The notes under the pieces: model-generated | What the model saw: only the letters and a program-made list of their open reading frames with translations | What the model was told of the DNA's origin: nothing | Database searches by the model: none | Made by a program: the position numbers and the translations under genes | Part shown: positions 11,192 to 25,420 of the stretch, piece after piece | How the letters are laid out: each line of letters begins with the position of its first letter | Position numbering within the stretch: position 1 is the first letter of the stretch | NCBI GenBank assembly: GCA_945910395.1 | Contig: CAMDYX010000013.1 | Location: forward strand, 1-56,317 | DNA length: 56,317 nt | Reading direction: 5' to 3' | Source of the DNA: an uncultured Agathobacter sp. | GTDB lineage: Bacteria > Bacillota > Clostridia > Lachnospirales > Lachnospiraceae

Positions 11192-12418
11192 ATGATAAAA
11201 ATTGATATTATTTCGGGCTTCCTCGGAGCTGGAAAGACTACCTTTATAAAGAAGATGATCAAGGAGGCTTTTTCCGGTGAACAGATTGTTTTGATTGAAA
11301 ACGAGTTTGGAGAGGTAGGAATTGACGGTGGATTCTTAAAGGATGCAGGAATTGAGATTACCGAGATGAATTCCGGCTGTATCTGCTGCTCTCTGGTTGG
11401 TGATTTCGGAAAAAATCTTCATGAAGTGATTCACAAATTCCATCCGGACAGAATTTTAATTGAGCCCTCCGGAGTAGGAAAGCTTTCCGATGTCATGAAG
11501 TCAGTCATTGATATCGAGAAGGAAGAGGATGTTAAGTTAAATGCGCTGGTTACGGTTGTAAATGCGTTAAAAGCCAGCAAGCAGATGAAGGCATTTGGCG
11601 AATTTTTCAACAATCAGATCGAGTATGCAACAACAGTGGTGCTCAGCCGTTCCCAGAATGCAACTCCGGAGCAGCTGGAATTCTGCGTAAAACAGATTCA
11701 GCAGATGAATCCTAAGGCAAAAATCATCACCACAGACTGGAATGCAATTTCGGGCAGCCAGATTCTTACGGTTATTGAAGGACAGGACAACCTCGAGATG
11801 AAGACCCTAGCAGAGGCGCGCCATGCGAAGGATGAAGAAGAACATGAGCATGAACATCATCATCACGATCATGATCATGATCACGAGGAACATGAGCATC
11901 ACGACCATGATCATGAGTGTCATCATGATCACGATCACGAGGAGCATGACCATGATCACGACCATGAGGAGCATGACCATGAGTGTCATCATGATCACGA
12001 TCACGAGGAGCATGACCATGAACATCACCATGATCACGATCATGAGGACCATGACCACGAACACCATCACCATGATCATGACGGGGAAACCTGCCCTTGC
12101 TGCGGCGGACATCACTCCGAGCATGAGCATCATCACCATCATCATGCAGATGATGTATTTACCAGCTGGGGAAAGGAAACACCGCATAAATTTACAAAGG
12201 AAGCCATTGAGAATGCATTAAAGAAGCTGGTGGAGGATGATACCATTCTTCGGGCAAAGGGTATGGTGGAAGGCGTAGACGGAACCTGGATCTACTTTGA
12301 TATGGTTCCCGGCGAATATGAGATCCGCCAGGGACAGCCGGATTACACAGGACGTCTGGTTGTAATCGGAACCGAAATAAAGGAACAGGAAATTTTAGAA
12401 TTGTTTGGTATCAATTAA
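11192..12418 (+). CDS. COG0523 (CobW-like) GTPase with long His-rich insert
   Basis: A 408-residue G3E-family GTPase, thought to act as a metal chaperone. The P-loop is GFLGAGKTT (residues 9-17) and the family metal-binding motif CxCC is C63-I-C-C66. Residues about 216-318 are an exceptional His/Asp/Glu/Cys-rich insert with runs of H, repeated DH and EH pairs, two CHH units (C243, C265) and CPCC (301-304) followed by more His. The CobW C-terminal domain (about 325-408) resumes with FTSWGKETPHKF. His-rich tracts in this family bind zinc, nickel or cobalt. A second COG0523 gene follows after 21 bases, so they form a pair. Zinc handling is my best guess; no Zur site was seen. Confidence 0.85.
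   Translation: MIKIDIISGFLGAGKTTFIKKMIKEAFSGEQIVLIENEFGEVGIDGGFLKDAGIEITEMNSGCICCSLVGDFGKNLHEVIHKFHPDRILIEPSGVGKLSDVMKSVIDIEKEEDVKLNALVTVVNALKASKQMKAFGEFFNNQIEYATTVVLSRSQNATPEQLEFCVKQIQQMNPKAKIITTDWNAISGSQILTVIEGQDNLEMKTLAEARHAKDEEEHEHEHHHHDHDHDHEEHEHHDHDHECHHDHDHEEHDHDHDHEEHDHECHHDHDHEEHDHEHHHDHDHEDHDHEHHHHDHDGETCPCCGGHHSEHEHHHHHHADDVFTSWGKETPHKFTKEAIENALKKLVEDDTILRAKGMVEGVDGTWIYFDMVPGEYEIRQGQPDYTGRLVVIGTEIKEQEILELFGIN
11915..12021 (+). repeat. 66-bp direct repeat in the His-rich coding region
   Basis: A 41-base block at 11915-11955 recurs identically at 11981-12021, exactly 66 bases (22 codons) later, encoding two copies of ECHHDHDHEEHDH. The repeat is in frame, so unequal exchange would lengthen or shorten the metal-binding tract without a frameshift. 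Confidence 0.85.
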
Positions 12419-16002: not shown

Positions 16003-18450
16003 ATGAAAGGCTTATCGGATGAGGAGGTTCGCAAGAGGATAGACGCGCATCTGGTAAATTATAAAGTAAAATCCCAGACAAAGTCCATTGGGGAAATTGT
16101 AAGGGAAAATGTATTTACTTATTTTAATCTGATTTTTTTAATACTGGCGATTTTACTTGGCATGGTATTTGCCTGGAAGGATATGTTGTTTCTTGCGGTT
16201 ATCATCGCAAATACGGTGATTGGGATTGTGCAGGAGGTCCATTCCAAAAAGGTGCTGGATAAGCTTTCCATTCTGGCAGAACCACAGGTTTCTGCCATCA
16301 GAAACGGGAAAAATATCGTCCTGTCATCGGAGGAGCTTGTACAGGATGATGTCATCATTTTGGAAGCCGGAAACCAGATTCCGGCGGATGCGGTGGTGCT
16401 GGAGGGAGAGGTAACAGTAAACGAGGCTTTGCTGACCGGTGAGGCGGATGAAATCAAAAAGAACGTTGGCGATGAACTTTTATCAGGAAGCTATGTTGTT
16501 TCGGGAAGTGTGGTTGCAACTTTAGTAAAGGTTGGAAAAGAGGCATATATCTCAAAGCTGACCCTTATGGCAACCCAGAGCAAGGAGGAAGAACAGTCGG
16601 AAATGATCCGCTCTCTGGACAGCTTGATCCTGGTAATGGGGATCTTGATTATTCCCATTGGAATTTCCTTGTTTGTACAGTCCTATGTATTCAATGATAA
16701 CAGCCTCCACGATAGTATCACAGGGATGGTGGCTGCGGTAATCGGAATGATACCGGAGGGGCTATATCTGCTGGCTACTGTGGCAATGGCAGCAAGTACC
16801 ATTCGACTGGCGGAGAAAAAAATACTGGTTCATGACATGAAATGTATCGAGGGACTGGCCCGGGTTGATGTGCTCTGTGTGGATAAAACCGGAACAATCA
16901 CCGAGCCGGGAATGGAGGTCGCAAAATTTTTGACCTGCAGGGAGCTGCTGGAGGAAGAACAAGAAATAAATAGAGAACAAGAACAAAATAAAGAGCAAGA
17001 ACAAAATAAAGAGCAAGAACTAAATAAAGAGCAAGAACTAAACAAAGAAAAGGAACTAAATAAAGAGCCACAAAATATTGAAGAGTTGATTTCAGATTTT
17101 GCATGTAATATGCAAAATGATAATGAAACCATGAAAGCAATCAAAGAATATTTTAACAAGGGGACGAATCAAAAAGCAAAAAAGGTGGTAGCTTTTTCCC
17201 CAAAAACAAAATATTCTGCGGTAACCCTGTCGGAGGGAACCTTTTTGATGGGTGCTCCGGAATTTGTGGTGGGAGAAGCTGAGGAATACCTTGCGGAAAA
17301 GCTGGAGGAATATGAAAAAGAGGGCTATCGGGTTCTTGCCTTTGTAAAATATGAGGGGGAGCCGGAGACAGAAATAGATCCGGCAAAATCAAGTCTGTTG
17401 GGACTGATTCTGCTATCTAATCCAATTCGTACCGGAGCAAAGGAAATTTTCCGGTTTTTTGCAGAACATGAAGTCGAAATAAAGGTGATCTCCGGAGATA
17501 ACCCTGTTACGGTATCTGCGGTTGCAAAGCAGGCAGGAATACAAAATTACGATCAGTATGTAGATGCAACTACATTAAAATCCTCAAAAGATTATTTCGA
17601 TGCAGTAGAAAAATATACGATCTTCGGAAGGGTGACACCGGAACAAAAGAGGGAATTGGTACATGCGCTTTCTGAGCATAAAAAGACGGTGGCCATGACC
17701 GGAGACGGAGTAAATGATGTACTTGCTTTAAAGGATGCAGACTGCAGCATTGCCATGGCCTCGGGAAGCGATGCTGCAGCAAAGGTGTCCCAGCTTGTCC
17801 TTTTAGAATCGGATTTTTCCCAGCTCCCATCCGTAGTTATGGAGGGAAGAAGAGTGGTAAACAATATACAAAGAACGGCTTCCTTGTATATTGTAAAAAA
17901 TATTTTCTCCATGCTGCTATCGATTTTTTCGGTGCTGTTCATGTTTGAATATCCCCTTGAGCCAACACAGATCACGTTAATCAGTATGTTTACCATCGGA
18001 ATTCCATCCGTTCTGTTAGCGTTAGAACCAAATCAAAATCCGATAAAGGGAAACTTCCTTTTCAACGTGCTGATGAAAGCGTTACCGGCAGGACTTACGG
18101 ATTTTATTGTGGTAAGCGGTCTGGTGGTTTTCTGTCATGAATTTGAGGTGGAGATGCACTGTCTGTCAACCTCCTGCACGGTTTTAGTCGCAATTGTGGG
18201 CTTTATGATTCTTTACCGGATTGCGAAGCCTATGACAAAATGGCATCTTATCATGATGATAGGAGTTATCTGCGGATGGGCTTTTTGCATGCGGAATATC
18301 AGCCATTTCTTTTCGATTACAGAAATTTCAAAACAATGCATGATGCTGATGATTATTTTTGCCATTATTACGGAGCCCTGTCTGAGATATTTAAGCCTTC
18401 TGACAGAGAATATAGGACGTTTTCCTGTCTTGCAACGCTTACTGAAATAG
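16003..18450 (+). CDS. P-type cation-transporting ATPase
   Basis: An 815-residue P-type ATPase of the compact CtpE/Exp7-like kind. It has actuator motif TGE (145-147), membrane motif PEGL in MIPEGLYLLATVA, phosphorylation site DKTGT (D294) and hinge GDGVNDVLALKDAD (567 on). Hydrophobic segments lie near 35-75, 205-265 and in a C-terminal bundle from about 625. There is no heavy-metal-binding N-terminal domain and no CPC motif, so a soft-metal pump is unlikely; calcium or another cation is possible. Right after the P-site, residues about 318-356 hold a repetitive Glu/Gln/Asn/Lys insert (EQEQNK-type hexapeptides). The gene stands alone between the nfnAB terminator and the next promoter. Confidence 0.88.
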   Translation: MKGLSDEEVRKRIDAHLVNYKVKSQTKSIGEIVRENVFTYFNLIFLILAILLGMVFAWKDMLFLAVIIANTVIGIVQEVHSKKVLDKLSILAEPQVSAIRNGKNIVLSSEELVQDDVIILEAGNQIPADAVVLEGEVTVNEALLTGEADEIKKNVGDELLSGSYVVSGSVVATLVKVGKEAYISKLTLMATQSKEEEQSEMIRSLDSLILVMGILIIPIGISLFVQSYVFNDNSLHDSITGMVAAVIGMIPEGLYLLATVAMAASTIRLAEKKILVHDMKCIEGLARVDVLCVDKTGTITEPGMEVAKFLTCRELLEEEQEINREQEQNKEQEQNKEQELNKEQELNKEKELNKEPQNIEELISDFACNMQNDNETMKAIKEYFNKGTNQKAKKVVAFSPKTKYSAVTLSEGTFLMGAPEFVVGEAEEYLAEKLEEYEKEGYRVLAFVKYEGEPETEIDPAKSSLLGLILLSNPIRTGAKEIFRFFAEHEVEIKVISGDNPVTVSAVAKQAGIQNYDQYVDATTLKSSKDYFDAVEKYTIFGRVTPEQKRELVHALSEHKKTVAMTGDGVNDVLALKDADCSIAMASGSDAAAKVSQLVLLESDFSQLPSVVMEGRRVVNNIQRTASLYIVKNIFSMLLSIFSVLFMFEYPLEPTQITLISMFTIGIPSVLLALEPNQNPIKGNFLFNVLMKALPAGLTDFIVVSGLVVFCHEFEVEMHCLSTSCTVLVAIVGFMILYRIAKPMTKWHLIMMIGVICGWAFCMRNISHFFSITEISKQCMMLMIIFAIITEPCLRYLSLLTENIGRFPVLQRLLK
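16957..17070 (+). repeat. 18-bp tandem repeat inside the P-type ATPase gene
   Basis: About six imperfect 18-base units of the type gaacaaaataaagagcaa, encoding hexapeptides such as EQEQNK, EQELNK and EKELNK. The unit is in frame, so copy changes alter the length of the cytosolic loop just after the phosphorylation site without breaking the gene. Confidence 0.85.
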
Positions 18451-18458
18451 TTTATAAT
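18430..18458 (+). promoter_or_regulatory. Promoter of the four-gene unknown unit
   Basis: TTGCAA (18430-18435), a 17-base spacer, perfect TATAAT (18453-18458). It overlaps the last codons of the ATPase gene and sits about 27 bases upstream of a likely start of transcription for the 1179-residue protein gene. Confidence 0.7.
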
Positions 18459-18492
18459 TTCTGCATATAGGACGGCATAAAGGAATTAGACC

Positions 18493-21400
18493 ATGCGAAA
18501 GAGAATTTTAAGACTCGCGAGAGGAAAATTCGAATATGTGAAGCCTTTATTGTCCTTTTCAGATGAGACGATCGATCTTACAGTAATTGAGAACTCAGAG
18601 CATAGCGGAAGCTTTTCGATTATAAGCGAAAACCATGTTCCTATGCGGGGAGTAATCTATTCCACCAACCCTCGAATGGAGTGCCTTACGCCGCAATTCG
18701 AGGGAGAGGAAGTCAAAATCCGTTACAAATTTCACGGAAAAGGTCTTTCGGAAGGGGAAGTAATCAAAGGTAATTTTGTGATTGTATGCAACCAGTTGGA
18801 ATACAGTCTTTCTTTTTGTGTCAACATTTCTAAACTCTATATGGATTCCTCACTGGGACAGATCAAAAGTCTGTACGAATTTGCCAATCTGGCAAAGGAG
18901 AGCTGGGAGGAAGCATATCAGCTGTTTTACCACAAGAGTTTTTCCAATATCATAAAGCCCAAAGAAATGAAGGAAGCAATGATTTACCGTGGCATTGTTT
19001 CTGCGAAGCCTTCCAATCAGAATCTGGAAGAATTTCTGGTCGGCATCCGTAAAAAAAGCAAAATACTGTTTTCCGTAGAGAAGGAGGACTATTCTTATAC
19101 AGATGTGACAGAATCCCTTAAAGAAAAAATCATCATAAAGAAAGACGGATGGGGATTTATAAATATTGATGTTGCTTCTGACTCCGAGGCAGTGCGTCCT
19201 TCCAGGGAGCATATTACAACAGAGGATTTTATCGGCAGTACCTGTGAATTTGATTTCTATATTGATGAAGAGGCACTTCATGCCGGAAAAAATTATGCCA
19301 GAATTACGTTGGAGAATGCTTACCAGACGAAGGAGCTTCGATTCGAAATATATAAAGGGCAGAAGAAGGAAAAGGATCCACTTCGCACGGACATCAAGGA
19401 ATGCAAGGTAGGCATCATGGAGCTGTACCAGGCATACCGGTTAAAGAAAATTGTGACCGGCGTGTGGGCAAATGAAACCATAGAAATCTTAGATCACCTG
19501 CATGCAGTGGAACCGGAGGAGCCGATGTACCTTCTGATGAAGGCACAGGTACTCATCATTAACAGGCAGAGGCAGGAAGCGGAATGGATTCTGGATGAAT
19601 TCAAGAAGGACTGGGCAGACAGAAAAGCCCCGATCTGGGGGTATTATCTGTATGTCATGACGCTTATGGAACGGGAACCCAGTTACGTTGACCGGATGAC
19701 GAAGGAAATCGAGATGATTTTCCATGAAAATCCGGACTCGGTTCTTCTTTTCTGGGTGCTGTCCTTTTTAAAGGAAGAGTATTATAACAACAATGCGCAG
19801 AAGCTGAAGGCAATCGAATACTGGGTCATGAAGGGAAATACCTCGCCCTATCTTTATCTGGAAGCCTACTATCTGATCTGGCAGGACCCATATCTGCTCA
19901 CGAAGCTGGAGAACTTTGAAATTCGTGTGCTTCGCTGGGCAATCCGCCATCGTGCAATTACAAAAGACATCGCGGTTCAGATATTCCAGATTGTGGAGAC
20001 AAAGAAGGATTTTGATCCGGTCATGTATGAGCTGTTGTGCGTGGCCTATGAAGTAAGTCCCAAGCCTGCCAACGTGGGGATGATCTGCAGCTATCTCATC
20101 AAGGGACAGCAATTTGATAAAAAGTATCATAAATGGTATGAAAAAGGAATTGAGCTGGAGCTTCGCATCACAAGTCTGTACGAAGCATACTTGTTGTCCA
20201 TGGATGAGCGGGAGATTATTTCTGTCCCGAAGATTATCCAGATGTATTTCCAGTATGAGAGTACCCTGCCTTATAAAAAAATGTCAGTGCTCTACAATAA
20301 TATTATTGCATCAAAGGATGTAAATCCTTCTGTTTATCAGAAATACCGCCGTGCAATGGGAAGATTTGCAATGGAGCAGGTAGAGCAGGGGCACATTGAC
20401 GATAATCTTGCTGTCGTATACCGGGATATGTTAGAGCTTGGGCTGGTAAATGAGGAGATTGCACATTCGCTCTCCAAAATTCTGTTTACCAACAAATTGA
20501 TCCTGACGGATGATACCATTGTGCGGGTAATTGTCTATCAGCGTCAGATGAAGGATCCTCAGATTGTACCGGTCAAGGACAAGACTGCATATTTTCAATT
20601 ATTTTCCAAGGAATATGTGATTGTTTTTGAAGATGCAAAGGGAAGACGGTATGCAGGAAGCATTCCCTATGAGTTGCAGCCCCTTCTTGATCCGCTGCTA
20701 TACATGGAAAAATGCATGGAGCTTGCCCCGGAGGAGATTTCCTATATTGTAGCCTATTTTGATACAAAACAGAATTACCTCACGTTTTCGGAAGAGGATA
20801 AAAAATACTTTCCAAGGATTCTTTTTGGGGATGATCTAAGCGACGAATATAAGGCGCAGATCATTCCGGAAATTGTCCGGTTCTATCAGACCTGTGAATA
20901 TGATGGGGTGATAAAAGAGTATCTGGAGAGAACGCCCTTTGACACCATGCCGGTTACGGTCAGACGCTTTTTAATGGAGCTATTGGTAGAAAACCATATT
21001 TTTGATAAAGCATATGAAATGATTCAGGTATATGGCATCGACCAGCTGCAAAGTGCGTCGAAGGTGGCCCTTTCCAGCTACATGATCAAGCAGTATGCAA
21101 AGGAAGAGGATGAGTTTTTGCTCTCCCTTGTGGAGCAGGGCTTTGTTCTTGGAAAATATAATGATGTGATGCTGGAATATCTGTGCAGCTATTATGACGG
21201 ACCGGCAGAAACCATGCGGGATATCTGGAAGGTTGCAGTCAATTTTGAAATTGAGACCTTTGAACTGGAAGAGCGGATTCTTGTTCAGATGATGTACACA
21301 GAAGTGATGCTAAAGGAAGCGGACGATATTTTTGAAAGCTACTATGAGCATGGAGGAAAGGAGCTGATCATTCTCGCATTTTTATCGTTGCGGGGACATG

Positions 21401-22032
21401 AGTTCTTCCTACATAACACGAAGACCAAGCAGGTGGTCTTTGATATGATTGAAGCACGTTATCTGTATCATATGGAGCTCAATGATGCCTGCAGGCTGGC
21501 ACTTTTAAAGCACTATGCAGATCTGCCGAATATTTCCGGAGAGCAGTATCGCATCGAGGATGAGCTCTTGGCAGAGTATACCTGCCGGAATATGAATTTC
21601 GCCTTTTACAAAAAGCTGGATCACAGGCTAATGCTGAAATATCATTTTTACGACAAGGTATTTCTGGAATATCGGGCAAATCCGCGGAAGCACGTTGTTC
21701 TGCATTACAGCAGGGACGAGGATGGCGAGAATTTCGTGGCGGAGGACATGCCGGATGTATACGATGGCATTTTTGTAAAAGCCTTTGTCATGTTCTTTGG
21801 GGAAACCGTGCAATATTATATCTCTGAGGAATACCAAAATGAGGTGGAAGTGACGGAGAGCAACCGGATAACGAACAATGATATTTACAGCGAGGATGAT
21901 GAGAGCAGATATAATCTCTTAAATCAGATGCTGATTTCAACCACCTTACAGGATGATCAGAGCTTGTATCACAATATGAAACAGTATGCAGGATTTGATG
22001 CGGTGACAAAGAAAATTTTTACGACTTTATAA
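18493..22032 (+). CDS. Giant hypothetical protein, DUF5717-like
   Basis: 1179 residues with no signal peptide or obvious membrane helix. Residues 1-110 are beta-rich and look like an Ig-type sandwich (MRKRILRLARGKFEYVKPLL, then alternating hydrophobic strands). A second beta-rich segment near 200-300 (CEFDFYIDEEAL, ARITLENAYQTKELRF) is followed by a long helical array (about 310-1100) rich in Leu, Tyr and Glu that resembles TPR-like or other alpha-solenoid repeats. A short acidic patch lies near the C-terminus. I associate it with the DUF5717 family of Lachnospiraceae, from memory. It is the first gene of a four-gene unit with an Hsp70-like protein, a TPR protein and a two-TM protein. The role is unknown; a scaffold or adaptor is inferred. 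Confidence 0.75.
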   Translation: MRKRILRLARGKFEYVKPLLSFSDETIDLTVIENSEHSGSFSIISENHVPMRGVIYSTNPRMECLTPQFEGEEVKIRYKFHGKGLSEGEVIKGNFVIVCNQLEYSLSFCVNISKLYMDSSLGQIKSLYEFANLAKESWEEAYQLFYHKSFSNIIKPKEMKEAMIYRGIVSAKPSNQNLEEFLVGIRKKSKILFSVEKEDYSYTDVTESLKEKIIIKKDGWGFINIDVASDSEAVRPSREHITTEDFIGSTCEFDFYIDEEALHAGKNYARITLENAYQTKELRFEIYKGQKKEKDPLRTDIKECKVGIMELYQAYRLKKIVTGVWANETIEILDHLHAVEPEEPMYLLMKAQVLIINRQRQEAEWILDEFKKDWADRKAPIWGYYLYVMTLMEREPSYVDRMTKEIEMIFHENPDSVLLFWVLSFLKEEYYNNNAQKLKAIEYWVMKGNTSPYLYLEAYYLIWQDPYLLTKLENFEIRVLRWAIRHRAITKDIAVQIFQIVETKKDFDPVMYELLCVAYEVSPKPANVGMICSYLIKGQQFDKKYHKWYEKGIELELRITSLYEAYLLSMDEREIISVPKIIQMYFQYESTLPYKKMSVLYNNIIASKDVNPSVYQKYRRAMGRFAMEQVEQGHIDDNLAVVYRDMLELGLVNEEIAHSLSKILFTNKLILTDDTIVRVIVYQRQMKDPQIVPVKDKTAYFQLFSKEYVIVFEDAKGRRYAGSIPYELQPLLDPLLYMEKCMELAPEEISYIVAYFDTKQNYLTFSEEDKKYFPRILFGDDLSDEYKAQIIPEIVRFYQTCEYDGVIKEYLERTPFDTMPVTVRRFLMELLVENHIFDKAYEMIQVYGIDQLQSASKVALSSYMIKQYAKEEDEFLLSLVEQGFVLGKYNDVMLEYLCSYYDGPAETMRDIWKVAVNFEIETFELEERILVQMMYTEVMLKEADDIFESYYEHGGKELIILAFLSLRGHEFFLHNTKTKQVVFDMIEARYLYHMELNDACRLALLKHYADLPNISGEQYRIEDELLAEYTCRNMNFAFYKKLDHRLMLKYHFYDKVFLEYRANPRKHVVLHYSRDEDGENFVAEDMPDVYDGIFVKAFVMFFGETVQYYISEEYQNEVEVTESNRITNNDIYSEDDESRYNLLNQMLISTTLQDDQSLYHNMKQYAGFDAVTKKIFTTL

Positions 22033-22049
22033 ATGGAAGATCAGGATAA

Positions 22050-23288
22050 ATGGAACAAAAAAGAGTACCGTATTATCTTGGCATTGATCTGAATGATCAG
22101 TATGCCATGATCAGCTTTTTTCAATTGAATATGAGTGAGCCTGATACGGTAAGTACGGTGGCGGGAAGCGGGATATATCAGATTCCGCTGGTCCTGGCAA
22201 AGCGAAAGGGCTTAGGACAGTGGTATTATGGGGAAGATGCGAAACGCCTTGCGAAAACGAGTGAAGTGATCTGCATTGACTTTCTGCTTCGCCGTGCTTC
22301 GCTGGGAGAGTCCATCCATATAGAAGATGAGACCTACCCGGCAGAGGAGCTTTTGGCTCTGTTTTTAAAGAAGATCATTGTACTTCCCCAGAAGCTGGGA
22401 AATCCGGTGTACTGTGACCGGCTGGTGATTACCGTCGACCGTCTTTCCAAAGAGAACATGGAGCTGTTCTGGAGAATTGCACCTAAGATCGGCTTCTTAA
22501 AAGATCAGTTTATGGTTATTGATCATAAGGAAAGCTTTTACTATTTTGCCTTAAACCAGAAGGAGGAGCTTTATCTCCATGATGTGTATCTCTTTGAATA
22601 CGATCAGAGCGGTTTATATTATTATGCCCTGACGAGAGATACGCGCACAACTCCTCAGGTTGTGTCCATTGCCACAAGCAGCCGCAATGTAATTTCAGAG
22701 GAAAATCAGGATCTGGATTTTTTGAAGGTGGAGCAAAGGGCTTTTGAGAACCGGATCATCTCATCCGTATATCTTGTGGGAGATGGCTTTGAAGGGGACT
22801 GGATGAAAGAGTCCCTGACCTATCTTTGCCGTGGCAGGAGAGCTTTTATCGGAAAAAATCTCTATTCCAAGGGAGCCTGCTATGCTGCTGCCATTCGTGA
22901 TATGGAGGACAAGTGGCCTTATATCTATATTGGCGAAAACGAGATGAAGTTCAATATCAGTATCAAAGTGAATAATTGCGGAACTATGGAATTCTACAAT
23001 CTGATCAGTGCCGGAAAAAACTGGTTCGAGATTAGCGGAGAGTGTGAAGTGATTCTGGATGGAAAGCCGGAAATTGATTTTTGGAAGCAGCTCCCGAAGA
23101 GCCGGGAGGCGGTGATTGAAACCTTAGAGCTTACAGATATTCCCAAAAGACCGAACAAAGCCACAAGGCTTCGCATCACAGCAAAACCGATTGCAGACGA
23201 TAAGGTGGAAATCGAAATCAAGGATATGGGCTTTGGGGAACTGTTCCGGGGGACTGATAAAGCCTGGAAATATACGATGACGATGTAG
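22050..23288 (+). CDS. Hsp70/actin-fold protein, DUF5716-like
   Basis: 412 residues. The start YYLGIDLNDQYAMISFF places GIDLN (residues 11-15) where Hsp70/actin proteins have phosphate loop 1 (GIDLGTT). YLFEYDQSGLYYYALTRD could be phosphate loop 2 (DxGGGT-like, but without the Gly run). ISSVYLVGDGFEGDWM resembles the adenosine motif (VLVGG). A beta-rich C-terminal part ends with EIEIKDMGFGELFRG, recalling the Hsp70 substrate domain. The loops are degenerate, so ATP hydrolysis is doubtful. I recall a DUF5716 family that matches. It is 17 bases downstream of the giant protein gene. Function unknown; possibly a chaperone-like module acting with its neighbours. Confidence 0.72.
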   Translation: MEQKRVPYYLGIDLNDQYAMISFFQLNMSEPDTVSTVAGSGIYQIPLVLAKRKGLGQWYYGEDAKRLAKTSEVICIDFLLRRASLGESIHIEDETYPAEELLALFLKKIIVLPQKLGNPVYCDRLVITVDRLSKENMELFWRIAPKIGFLKDQFMVIDHKESFYYFALNQKEELYLHDVYLFEYDQSGLYYYALTRDTRTTPQVVSIATSSRNVISEENQDLDFLKVEQRAFENRIISSVYLVGDGFEGDWMKESLTYLCRGRRAFIGKNLYSKGACYAAAIRDMEDKWPYIYIGENEMKFNISIKVNNCGTMEFYNLISAGKNWFEISGECEVILDGKPEIDFWKQLPKSREAVIETLELTDIPKRPNKATRLRITAKPIADDKVEIEIKDMGFGELFRGTDKAWKYTMTM

Positions 23289-23297
23289 GAGGTCAAG

Positions 23298-24137
23298 GTG
23301 GGAAATTTATTATTATGTAATCAGCAGATCGCCGCTATGCCTTACTATATTGAAGGAATTTCTGTGAATCTGTATTCCATGGAAGAGCTGTGCTATTATA
23401 TAGCGAATAATACCTATCTTTTGGAACGGGAATTTATGTGTGAGGATCTATGCACATGGATTGAAAAGGAGCTAAAGATGGTAGAGCTTTCCGATCGGTT
23501 AAGAGACTGTCTGACGGTAAACGGTGCACTTTCCGATTTTATTTCGGAAATCCTAAGATCCTGTGCATATTGTACGAAGGAGCAAATAGAAAGCATTTGC
23601 AGTCTGATCCGTGAAATGGAAGAAAAATCGGATTTTGAGTGCAATAAGATCCGAGCAGACCGGCTGATGGAAAGAGAGAAGTATTTAAGCAGTATCTATG
23701 AATACAAACGGCTTTTGGACAGCGAGGATGCCAAGACGGAAAATCCGGTTATTGTGGGGAATATCTGGCATAACTTAGGAACCGCCTATGCGAGACTCTT
23801 TTTGTTTCAGGAAGCGATTGCCTGCTATCAAAAGGCCTATGAGAAGAACGGAAACGAAGAATCCTTACGGGAGGAATTATTTGCCTACCGCTGTCTGCAC
23901 GATGAGGCAGGTTTTATCAAGCTTGCCCGGGAAAATCAGCTGGATGACAAGGCTATGCAGGAAATCCGAAGCGAGCTTACCGCAGTAAGCAGAAGCGAGG
24001 AGGTCCTGGAATTTGAAAGCAGCCTGGAGGAAATTGCAAAGCTTTTAGAAAATGGGAACAGAACGGAATTTCAGAGCAGGATCAGTGCAATGATCTATCA
24101 ATGGAAAGAGGATTACCGCAAAATCAGCAGGGTATAG
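23298..24137 (+). CDS. TPR-containing hypothetical protein
   Basis: 279 residues, starting at GTG with TAGGAGG 7 bases upstream and only 9 bases after the previous stop. The N-terminal half is helical. One clear tetratricopeptide unit spans about residues 154-185, including WHNLGTAYARLFLFQEAIAC and YQKAYEKNG; neighbouring helices could form further degenerate repeats. There is no signal peptide or membrane helix. TPR arrays bind peptides or partner proteins, and Hsp70 systems often recruit TPR adaptors, so a partnership with the upstream Hsp70-like protein is a reasonable inference. No recognised named family. Confidence 0.7.
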   Translation: MGNLLLCNQQIAAMPYYIEGISVNLYSMEELCYYIANNTYLLEREFMCEDLCTWIEKELKMVELSDRLRDCLTVNGALSDFISEILRSCAYCTKEQIESICSLIREMEEKSDFECNKIRADRLMEREKYLSSIYEYKRLLDSEDAKTENPVIVGNIWHNLGTAYARLFLFQEAIACYQKAYEKNGNEESLREELFAYRCLHDEAGFIKLARENQLDDKAMQEIRSELTAVSRSEEVLEFESSLEEIAKLLENGNRTEFQSRISAMIYQWKEDYRKISRV

Positions 24138-24139
24138 AA

Positions 24140-25420
24140 ATGAGTTTTTTGGAATTTTTTCGAAGAAAGAAAAAAAAGGAATATGAGGAAGAACGCCCCT
24201 ATGAAGACGCGTATGCACCGTTGTTTGCCAAGGAAGATGAAGTGTATATGACATCGAAGCTGGATTCCATCGACTTTGCCGATAAAGGAACGGTAGGGAA
24301 AAGAAGGGCGGAAAGAGAAAGCTCAAAAGGGCAGATTCCCCTGAAGCATCGGGCGGTTGAATTGTGCGAGGAGCTGATTGATGCATCCAGAGGTCTGGAA
24401 GATCAGAAATCGGAATACCAGCTGGTCACAGCCTATTTGAATGATATTCAGAAGCTGGAAGAAATGCCGGTGGACCAATACAAGCCCATCGAGGATTCTG
24501 CCAGACAGATTGCAAAGCTGGATTCCGCCAGAAATCAGTACTTAAATACGGAACACCGCATCTCAGATGTGAAATTTGCACAGTTTCAGGAAGAGGAAAG
24601 CCAGATGCCGGGAATCATCCGGCGTTTTCAATCGAATGAGGCATATTTAGAGGCTATTAACCGGGATCTTCGCCTTTTGGAAGGGGAGAAAATGGAATGG
24701 AATATTTTGAAAGAGGATAACAAGCATGCGATGGAAATGTTAAGAAAGCTGTCGATTGTGATGTTTGTATTCTTTTTTGTATGGTGTCTGCTTCTTTTGA
24801 CACTTTCCTACGTGTTTGAGTTTGACTCCCAGCTTTATATGCTGATTACAGCTTTTCTGGCCGTCATTCTGGCAGCCTTTGTCATTGTGAGATACCAGAA
24901 TGCCGGAAATGAAATCAAACGGTGTGACACGCATAAAAATCAGGCAATCTCCCTGGAAAACCATGTCAAGTTCAAGTATGTCAATATCAAACATGCCGTA
25001 GATTATACCTGTGAGAAGTATCAGGTGAAAAATTCCTACGAGCTGATTTACCAGTACGAACAGTATCAGGAGATGGTAAAGGAACGGGAAAGATTTCGCC
25101 AGACCAGTGATGACCTGGTTTATTATTCACAGCGTCTGATCAGACAGTTAGAGTCCATCAATCTGTATGATGCAAGAATCTGGTTGCATTATCTTGGCGC
25201 ACTTTTAGACAAAAAAGAGATGAGTGAGCTAAAGCATAATATGCTTGTTAGGCGGCAGAAGATCCGGAAAAATATGGAGGAACAAAGTGCTACGATCCAG
25301 GAGCTGCGGGAGGATATTGAAGAATATATTTACCATTCCGGGGATGATATGAAGCAGATCCGCGCAGTACTTTCCAAGCTGGATCATATTGACACGATAA
25401 AACCATTTTCATATAATTGA
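24140..25420 (+). CDS. Two-TM coiled-coil hypothetical protein
   Basis: 426 residues from this start. It opens with MSFLEFFRRKKKKEYEEERP, a basic-acidic cytosolic segment, followed by a long helical, coiled-coil-like region (about 70-200). Two adjacent membrane helices lie at about 205-255 (VMFVFFFVWCLLLLTL and LITAFLAVILAAFVIV). Another coiled-coil region (about 260-415) follows, so both ends should face the cytosol. I chose the ATG at 24140, two bases after the previous stop; an ATG at 24101 inside the TPR gene would add 13 unlikely residues. As the only membrane protein in the unit, it may anchor the other three. No family recognised. Confidence 0.7.
   Translation: MSFLEFFRRKKKKEYEEERPYEDAYAPLFAKEDEVYMTSKLDSIDFADKGTVGKRRAERESSKGQIPLKHRAVELCEELIDASRGLEDQKSEYQLVTAYLNDIQKLEEMPVDQYKPIEDSARQIAKLDSARNQYLNTEHRISDVKFAQFQEEESQMPGIIRRFQSNEAYLEAINRDLRLLEGEKMEWNILKEDNKHAMEMLRKLSIVMFVFFFVWCLLLLTLSYVFEFDSQLYMLITAFLAVILAAFVIVRYQNAGNEIKRCDTHKNQAISLENHVKFKYVNIKHAVDYTCEKYQVKNSYELIYQYEQYQEMVKERERFRQTSDDLVYYSQRLIRQLESINLYDARIWLHYLGALLDKKEMSELKHNMLVRRQKIRKNMEEQSATIQELREDIEEYIYHSGDDMKQIRAVLSKLDHIDTIKPFSYN
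25389..25417 (+). promoter_or_regulatory. Perfect-consensus promoter of gltX
   Basis: TTGACA (25389-25394), a 17-base spacer, TATAAT (25412-25417): all twelve consensus positions and the ideal spacing. It overlaps the last codons of the upstream gene. Transcription should begin near 25424, giving a leader of about 43 bases. Confidence 0.85.

Follow-up and report, generated by a model that had tools for sequence, protein, structure and literature searches.

The window analysed here is a 56,317-nucleotide stretch of DNA from an uncultured Agathobacter sp. of the family Lachnospiraceae (contig CAMDYX010000013.1), and our subject is a unit of four plus-strand genes within it, A to D. Comparison of gene order and sequence with sister families shows this unit to derive by reduction, and apparently at the same locus, from an operon for a dedicated Hsp70 machine. 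By the same comparison, three Hsp70s with intact motifs and a GrpE-domain protein have been lost from the operon in the Lachnospiraceae, two pieces of A (A_N and A_C) have become one protein, and B, here read as a pseudo-Hsp70, has lost its nucleotide clamp.

18493..22032, plus strand: gene A, 1179 amino acids (aa), DUF5717, proposed scaffold (open reading frame (ORF) call, Pfam, structure model)
22050..23288, plus strand: gene B, 412 aa, DUF5716, putative pseudo-Hsp70 (Pfam, Protein Data Bank (PDB) profile match, motif counts)
23298..24137, plus strand: gene C, 279 aa, GTG start, TPR protein (weak Pfam TPR match, B-C fusions)
24140..25420, plus strand: gene D, 426 aa, protein with two transmembrane segments, optional member, putative membrane anchor (hydrophobic helices)

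Gaps of 17 bases (A-B), 9 bases (B-C) and 2 bases (C-D) separate the genes, and we recovered these spacings, the shared strand and a promoter-like site upstream of A just as an initial annotation of the window had reported them. Gene D has an alternative longer frame from 24101.

An Hsp70 operon in sister families

Our phylum and class samples held very few genomes of the same order, which was searched separately (146 genomes). A profile of A matched 72 of these, 17 of 17 in the family itself and 55 of 129 outside it; among the 55, one match (G527) was weak and one genome (G614) holds a family-type copy. We then collected 38 stretches from outside the family (20, including that of G614, and 18 more), picked from profile matches and therefore not sampled at random. 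In these sister families a larger operon occupies the locus, which is why we read the window unit as its reduced descendant. We label the parts of this parent operon A_N and A_C (pieces of A), h1 (Hsp70-1), X (the GrpE-domain protein), h2 (the B orthologue), h3 (Hsp70-3), h4 (Hsp70-VWA), C and D. That order was kept in 37 of 37 stretches (G614 aside), as far as the parts were present, with an uninterrupted run from A_C to h4 in 20 of the 37. Both h2 and X were found at all 37 loci, h1 at 34, A_C at 33, h4 at 31, h3 at 29, C at 26, a separate A_N at 21 and D at 9, counts that fall short where a stretch ends, where A_N and A_C are fused or where the operon is broken. The initial annotation had seen nothing in the neighbourhood that would explain the job of these genes; the enlarged operon now points to chaperone work.

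Domains were assigned by Pfam at two parent loci, L137 and L136, and the other loci were labelled by profiles seeded from these. At L137, three proteins matched HSP70 (h1, 6.2e-78; h3, 1.6e-63; h4, 8.1e-92), a VWA domain (7.1e-10) was found in h4 as well, X has a C-terminal GrpE domain (7.1e-11), and h2 matched both DUF5716_C (2.2e-33) and HSP70 (1.8e-14). L136, from the nearest outgroup genome (G496), holds the same parts, its GrpE protein being short at 279 aa (5.4e-12), and also D; its h4 and C are each split over two frames, and its h2 matched DUF5716_C (3.4e-74) without an HSP70 match. In some genomes of another family (f121; L142, L154 and L155) the operon is broken, with h2 and X in other surroundings and A on another contig or tens of kilobases away.

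Phylogeny placed the family unit next to G496. In a quick tree of A (LG+G4, about every second family A, with warnings on long branches and composition), the family and the G614 copy fell on one side of a branch (51 rows, support 98), G496, with the long operon kept, lay directly outside the family (support 100), and the other 32 sister rows lay beyond. An equally quick Hsp70 tree of 54 rows, with every fourth B and every second h2, recovered B as one group (support 99) within the h2 paralogues, sister to the h2 of G496 (support 100), and h1, h3 and h4 as separate groups. Flanking genes are also shared across the family border. A gene presumed to encode a CobD-like aminotransferase lies upstream at 17 of 37 loci outside the family and at 35 of 91 loci within it (directly upstream at 31), and a presumed valS lies downstream at 6 of 37 and 20 of 91. 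These flanks therefore support descent at one locus.

Pfam assigned gene B to DUF5716_C (1.1e-109, residues 124-412), a model that leaves the N-terminal Hsp70 lobe outside. A profile of 86 B proteins (that of the window and 85 others) had DnaK (2v7y, 5.4e-08) as its best PDB match, identifying B as an Hsp70 homologue over the N-lobe, in line with the Hsp70-like label that the initial annotation gave it. A second, weak DnaK match (4.2 bits) fell on the substrate-binding beta domain, and in h3 of L137 the HSP70 match (105-507) and the DUF5716_C match (381-529) overlap; B thus retains this domain. The alpha-helical lid is absent, since 13 B alignment rows end with the beta domain.

The phosphate-1 motif GTT, the Lys, the Glu and the phosphate-2 motif GGGT were each found in 0 of 86 B proteins. 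The parent Hsp70s carry all four (each motif in 34/34 h1, 29/29 h3 and 30/31 h4), the 31st h4 being a fragment, the C-terminal piece of the L136 h4. The degenerate h2 has GTT in 0, Lys in 0, Glu in 4 and GGGT in 0 of 35. From the phosphate-2 to the adenosine motif, B spans a median of 69 residues, compared with 143-178 in the other Hsp70 paralogues, and this short spacing corresponds to a missing subdomain IIB, which was present in 0 of 86 B (maximum occupancy 0.04) as against 35 of 35 full-length h2, that of G496 included. Because h2 lacks the motifs yet keeps IIB, catalytic decay preceded the loss of IIB. With the phosphate-binding residues and IIB gone, the nucleotide-binding role suggested for B finds no support, and we regard it as a pseudo-Hsp70 whose nucleotide clamp has been lost. 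These counts omit 4 of 90 B, namely two fusions (L079, L104) and two fragments (L119, L123), together with three copies of the family type (L152, L171, L172), a 198-aa h4 piece of L136, and two 412-aa h2 proteins that were checked afterwards. The latter two, near-identical and very divergent, come from family f135 (L146:9604-10842 and L149:9780-11018).

At E<=1e-20, the 200 family genomes described below yielded no match spanning the Hsp70-VWA fusion and, in one genome, a VWA-only match. In the phylum sample, a profile of the substrate-binding domain (SBD) joined to VWA matched 255 of 299 genomes at 1e-5; among the matches listed, most lay on the SBD part, as DnaK would, a few lay on the VWA part (two of these starting at profile position 80-89), and none outside the order spanned the fusion. 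VWA domains like that of Hsp70-VWA were seen elsewhere in the phylum in very long ORFs of 1102-1832 aa (L191-L194, from G187, G163, G139 and G284). The C-terminal 300 residues of Hsp70-VWA (L137:5790-6689 and 22 relatives) have a mean column identity of 73%, a figure that comes from 23 of 30 eligible rows and lies far above the conservation of A, B or C; they include a nearly invariant DTTGSM, a metal-site-like motif.

Occurrence and members of the unit

Running the conservation check that the initial annotation had suggested, we searched 200 Lachnospiraceae genomes, one per genus. A (DUF5717) and B (DUF5716) occurred in the identical 198 genomes, in single copy in nearly all of them, bearing out the association of both families with the Lachnospiraceae. 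The two genomes without A and B, G363 and G367, also lack C: in a search of four genomes for C, two served as positive controls and these two were negative.

Local order was examined at 91 loci (90 fetched and the window; G304 and G322 contribute two loci each), with A found at 89, B at 90, C at 89 and D at 43, and with contig ends behind part of the misses. Measured from the first possible start codons, gaps were 60 nucleotides or less in 82 of 88 A-B, 81 of 85 B-C and 39 of 41 C-D pairs. Within the family, a split of the core that seems genuine was seen once, in G322. In four genera, B and C form a single ORF matched by both profiles (G341, L079; G426, L104; G494, L171; G391, L172), and Pfam found DUF5716_C followed by a sub-threshold TPR in the L079 fusion. 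G341 and G391 are sister rows in the tree of A, in which G494 stands apart; G426 is outside that tree. The fusion, which couples B and C, therefore arose at least twice.

Gene D matched in 88 of the 200 genomes, of which 85, at E 1e-16 or better, were taken as genuine; the matches in G315, G336 and G427 were discounted. Its presence requires 9 changes on the tree of A. The proposal of a conserved four-gene unit consequently holds for A, B and C, which stand together at nearly all loci, and fails for D, which is found in 85 of 200 genera and is not a fixed member; we regard it as an optional member and putative membrane anchor.

Beyond the family, A was found in 5 of 299 phylum-sample genomes at E<=0.001 (four of the same family, one weak at 6.5e-4) and, with a profile widened by sister-family sequences, in 13 of 243 class-sample genomes (ten of the same family, three weak at 2.4e-5 to 7.6e-4). 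We treated the weak matches as chance, which leaves no convincing A outside the order in either sample. The B profile matched 102 of 146 genomes of the order at E<=0.001, and ordinary DnaK probably accounts for many of the weaker single matches. At L152 in G614, a genome placed outside the family, the operon is nevertheless reduced and of the family type, presumably through transfer or a misplaced contig (5% contamination). A plasmid search with B gave zero matches. A phage search with A returned four unannotated 'Bacteriophage sp.' faecal contigs, MT835486, MT835988, MT835719 and MT837190, with the full gene in three and part of it in one; perhaps these are bacterial DNA.

Pfam covers nearly the whole of A with DUF5717_N (7.9e-286) and DUF5717 (1.8e-102). 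A predicted structure of A alone (pLDDT 88.8) shows two PapD/ASH-like beta-sandwich domains, a TPR-like alpha-solenoid (residues 296-660 and 734-1049) and a C-terminal beta domain, in agreement with the giant, scaffold-like solenoid first proposed for this 1179-residue protein. In structure comparison the beta domains resemble ASH/PapD/MSP domains of CEP192 SPD-2, HYDIN and central-apparatus chains; the comparison concerns chiefly residues 14-288, with the remainder barely covered and its folds not claimed as new. PDB profile searches with A and with D found no clear relative. C gave a weak TPR match (best 6.9e-06, slightly below the curated cut-off), and D gave sub-threshold Pfam matches alone. 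The two membrane segments predicted for D were recovered as hydrophobic helices at residues 204-222 and 232-250, and A, B and C have no hydrophobic helix above the threshold used. The D of Lachnobacterium bovis (L011:15781-18030), 749 aa in total, is prolonged at its C-terminus by a long charged stretch with no Pfam match. NCBIfam gave zero matches for A, B and C and sub-threshold matches alone for D, and a PADLOC scan of A to D gave zero matches.

Candidate functions

Joining the sequence comparisons with the structure model, we give an even chance to a reading in which A, B and C form an ATP-independent, client-binding scaffold descended from the Hsp70 operon, anchored by D where present. 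The three would make a stable complex that works without an ATP cycle of its own. A would serve as scaffold and docking surface through its PapD/ASH-like domains and solenoid, B would present a permanently exposed, lid-less substrate-binding beta domain that holds clients, C would be a TPR adaptor bound to B, and D would tether the complex to the membrane. Such a complex might hold a client or assemble a structure, and may pass clients to the housekeeping DnaK. In the window's own genome, HSP70 matches comprise the two halves of a DnaK, located at contig ends, together with three partial matches of lower strength. A CIRCE element, sought by its consensus with up to 4 mismatches allowed, was found in 0 of 125 upstream regions, setting the unit apart from the HrcA/CIRCE heat-shock regulon. 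Together with its near-universality, this suggests that the unit performs a basic task constitutively and does not serve in heat shock or defence.

Somewhat short of an even chance, in our estimate, is the broader proposal that a core process of the whole family depends on an ATP-free relic of an Hsp70 machine, in which the pseudo-Hsp70 is fixed to an ASH/TPR scaffold and so forms a permanent platform for assembly, and that the parent machine, with its four Hsp70 paralogues, GrpE-domain protein and Hsp70-VWA fusion, would be an undescribed kind of chaperone complex. Present in almost every genus of a large family and undetected in samples from outside its order, these genes are good candidates for what makes the family work. 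The parent operon turns proteins of a unit previously without a lead into a testable chaperone hypothesis, and offers a natural experiment in which an ATP-driven Hsp70 machine loses its motor and is nevertheless retained.

With Hsp70/DnaK systems that include GrpE, the unit has in common the homology of B over the N-lobe and the C-terminal beta-domain region found in both B and h3, and a GrpE-domain protein is likewise encoded in the parent operon. It differs in that B lacks the four motifs, IIB and the lid, and in that the window operon has no GrpE protein (A to D gave no GrpE or HSP70 Pfam match); the scan of proteins at the two parent loci found no DnaJ. Among published systems, the GAP1-N2 GTPase-centred group with an HSP70-GrpE theme comes closest; in the accessible part of their description, these systems join HSP70 and GrpE to a beta-domain protein with fused TPR repeats, and some have a further, reduced Hsp70 (PMC7159879). 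The HSP70 and GrpE pair is present at parent loci L137 and L136 and absent from the window operon. Unlike those systems, neither the window genes nor the proteins scanned at the two parent operons include a GTPase (Pfam), those parent proteins include no effector either, the unit is near-universal in one family, the parent operon has four Hsp70 paralogues, one of them VWA-fused, and A carries PapD/ASH-like domains. In the model of A, these beta-sandwiches precede a TPR-like solenoid. MoxR-VWA ternary systems likewise use VWA as a co-chaperone-like module, according to the accessible part of the same source (PMC7159879); here VWA is part of an Hsp70 fusion in the parent operon and does not occur in that of the window, and no MoxR ATPase was found among the proteins scanned. 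A and B match DUF5717_N/DUF5717 and DUF5716_C above cut-off, Pfam families described only as of unknown function. A description of the locus was not found in the titles and opening lines of abstracts listed from the open-access literature, which is no proof of absence and agrees with the initial view of an undescribed system; the accessible part of a paper on DnaK duplication (PMC11019930) contains no word starting with 'clostrid' or 'lachnospir'.

Several observations weigh against the client-binding scaffold and its descent from the parent operon. G363 and G367 seemingly live without A, B and C, with assembly gaps possible, and in G322 (L121, L122) A lies on a separate contig, not at a contig end, away from B, C and D. 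TPR-like and PapD-like folds are common and indicate no function. The short h2 of L146 and L149 keep only part of IIB (occupancy 0.4), so shrinkage of this paralogue is not unique to the Lachnospiraceae; perhaps it occurred in parallel. The shared flanks are found at a minority of loci only, and the mean column identity of 30-34% among orthologues (rows of unusual length omitted) suits a scaffold and would equally suit fast-changing conflict proteins.

The resemblance of the A beta domains to structural scaffold proteins also fits a role in cell envelope or architecture, in which the actin-fold Hsp70 and the ASH/PapD-like parts would have given up protein folding and would build a structural platform. 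Such a platform might serve division or wall synthesis, with D as its anchor in some genera. Near-universality, a mostly single copy, vertical inheritance and the membrane helices supplied by D are consistent with such a platform, which we nonetheless consider rather unlikely: more than half of the genera lack D, neighbouring genes vary between genera, and the GrpE-domain protein and intact-motif Hsp70s of the parent operon point to a chaperone cycle.

Those same parent proteins, with their VWA, Ig-like and TPR parts, recall the published systems that join HSP70, GrpE and TPR- or DnaJ-fused FNIII proteins (accessible part of PMC7159879), and could come from a conflict (anti-invader) system domesticated in the family. 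PADLOC candidate PDC-M61B partly matches the parent Hsp70-3 (3.9e-11) and Hsp70-VWA (2e-07), and weaker partial matches fall on C (PrimPol, 4.4e-06; PDC-M71B, 0.0043), X (ZorA, 0.0014) and D (LeoBC, 0.068). However, the PDC-M61B matches extend over some 190 of 588 positions, lie in the Hsp70 part and may come from no more than a shared Hsp70 region; we read all these matches as shared Hsp70, TPR and coiled-coil stretches and rejected a mobile or defence origin drawn from them. The lack of GTPase and effector domains among the proteins scanned at the two parent loci, the empty PADLOC scan of the window proteins, the lack of a plasmid match for B and the presence in 198 of 200 genera, unlike a patchy defence system, make such an origin distinctly improbable. 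We hold it highly improbable that B instead gauges protein damage through unfolded peptides while A and C relay to a regulator with no chaperone work. A pseudo-ATPase that keeps its substrate-binding domain would suit such a signalling sensor; against it, neighbours resembling regulators, as assessed by eye from the beginnings of their sequences, recurred at only 5-6 of 91 loci, in scattered positions, and CIRCE was absent upstream of all 125 loci.

Promoter-like sites, flanks and repeats in the window

Two promoter-like sites bear on transcription of the unit:

18430..18458, plus strand: promoter-like TTGCAA-17-TATAAT, 5' of gene A (10/12 matches)
25389..25417, plus strand: perfect promoter-like TTGACA-17-TATAAT before gltX, within the 3' end of D (promoter scan)

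The former overlaps the 3' end of a P-type ATPase gene, which ends at 18450. The whole scan gave 34 promoter-like sites compared with 28.6 (s.d. 5.6) in shuffles, and a single site is weak evidence because the total is near the shuffled expectation. Across 125 loci, a sigma-70-like promoter lay upstream of the unit at 75, against 42 expected from simple shuffles, CtsR-like sites at 3 and a sigma-B-like site at 1. The perfect site before gltX suggests that gltX and the A-D unit are transcribed separately. Identified by Pfam, gltX lies downstream of the unit in the window; this gene, valS, purB and the CobD-like aminotransferase (the last three names being presumptive) adjoin the unit in some genera only.

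Within the upstream P-type ATPase gene, an 18-base tandem repeat of about 6 copies (16955-17066) encodes a product rich in glutamate, glutamine, asparagine and lysine. Overlapping tandem repeats at 11840-12078 would read as His, Asp and Glu codons in one frame, and their product is perhaps a metal-binding stretch.

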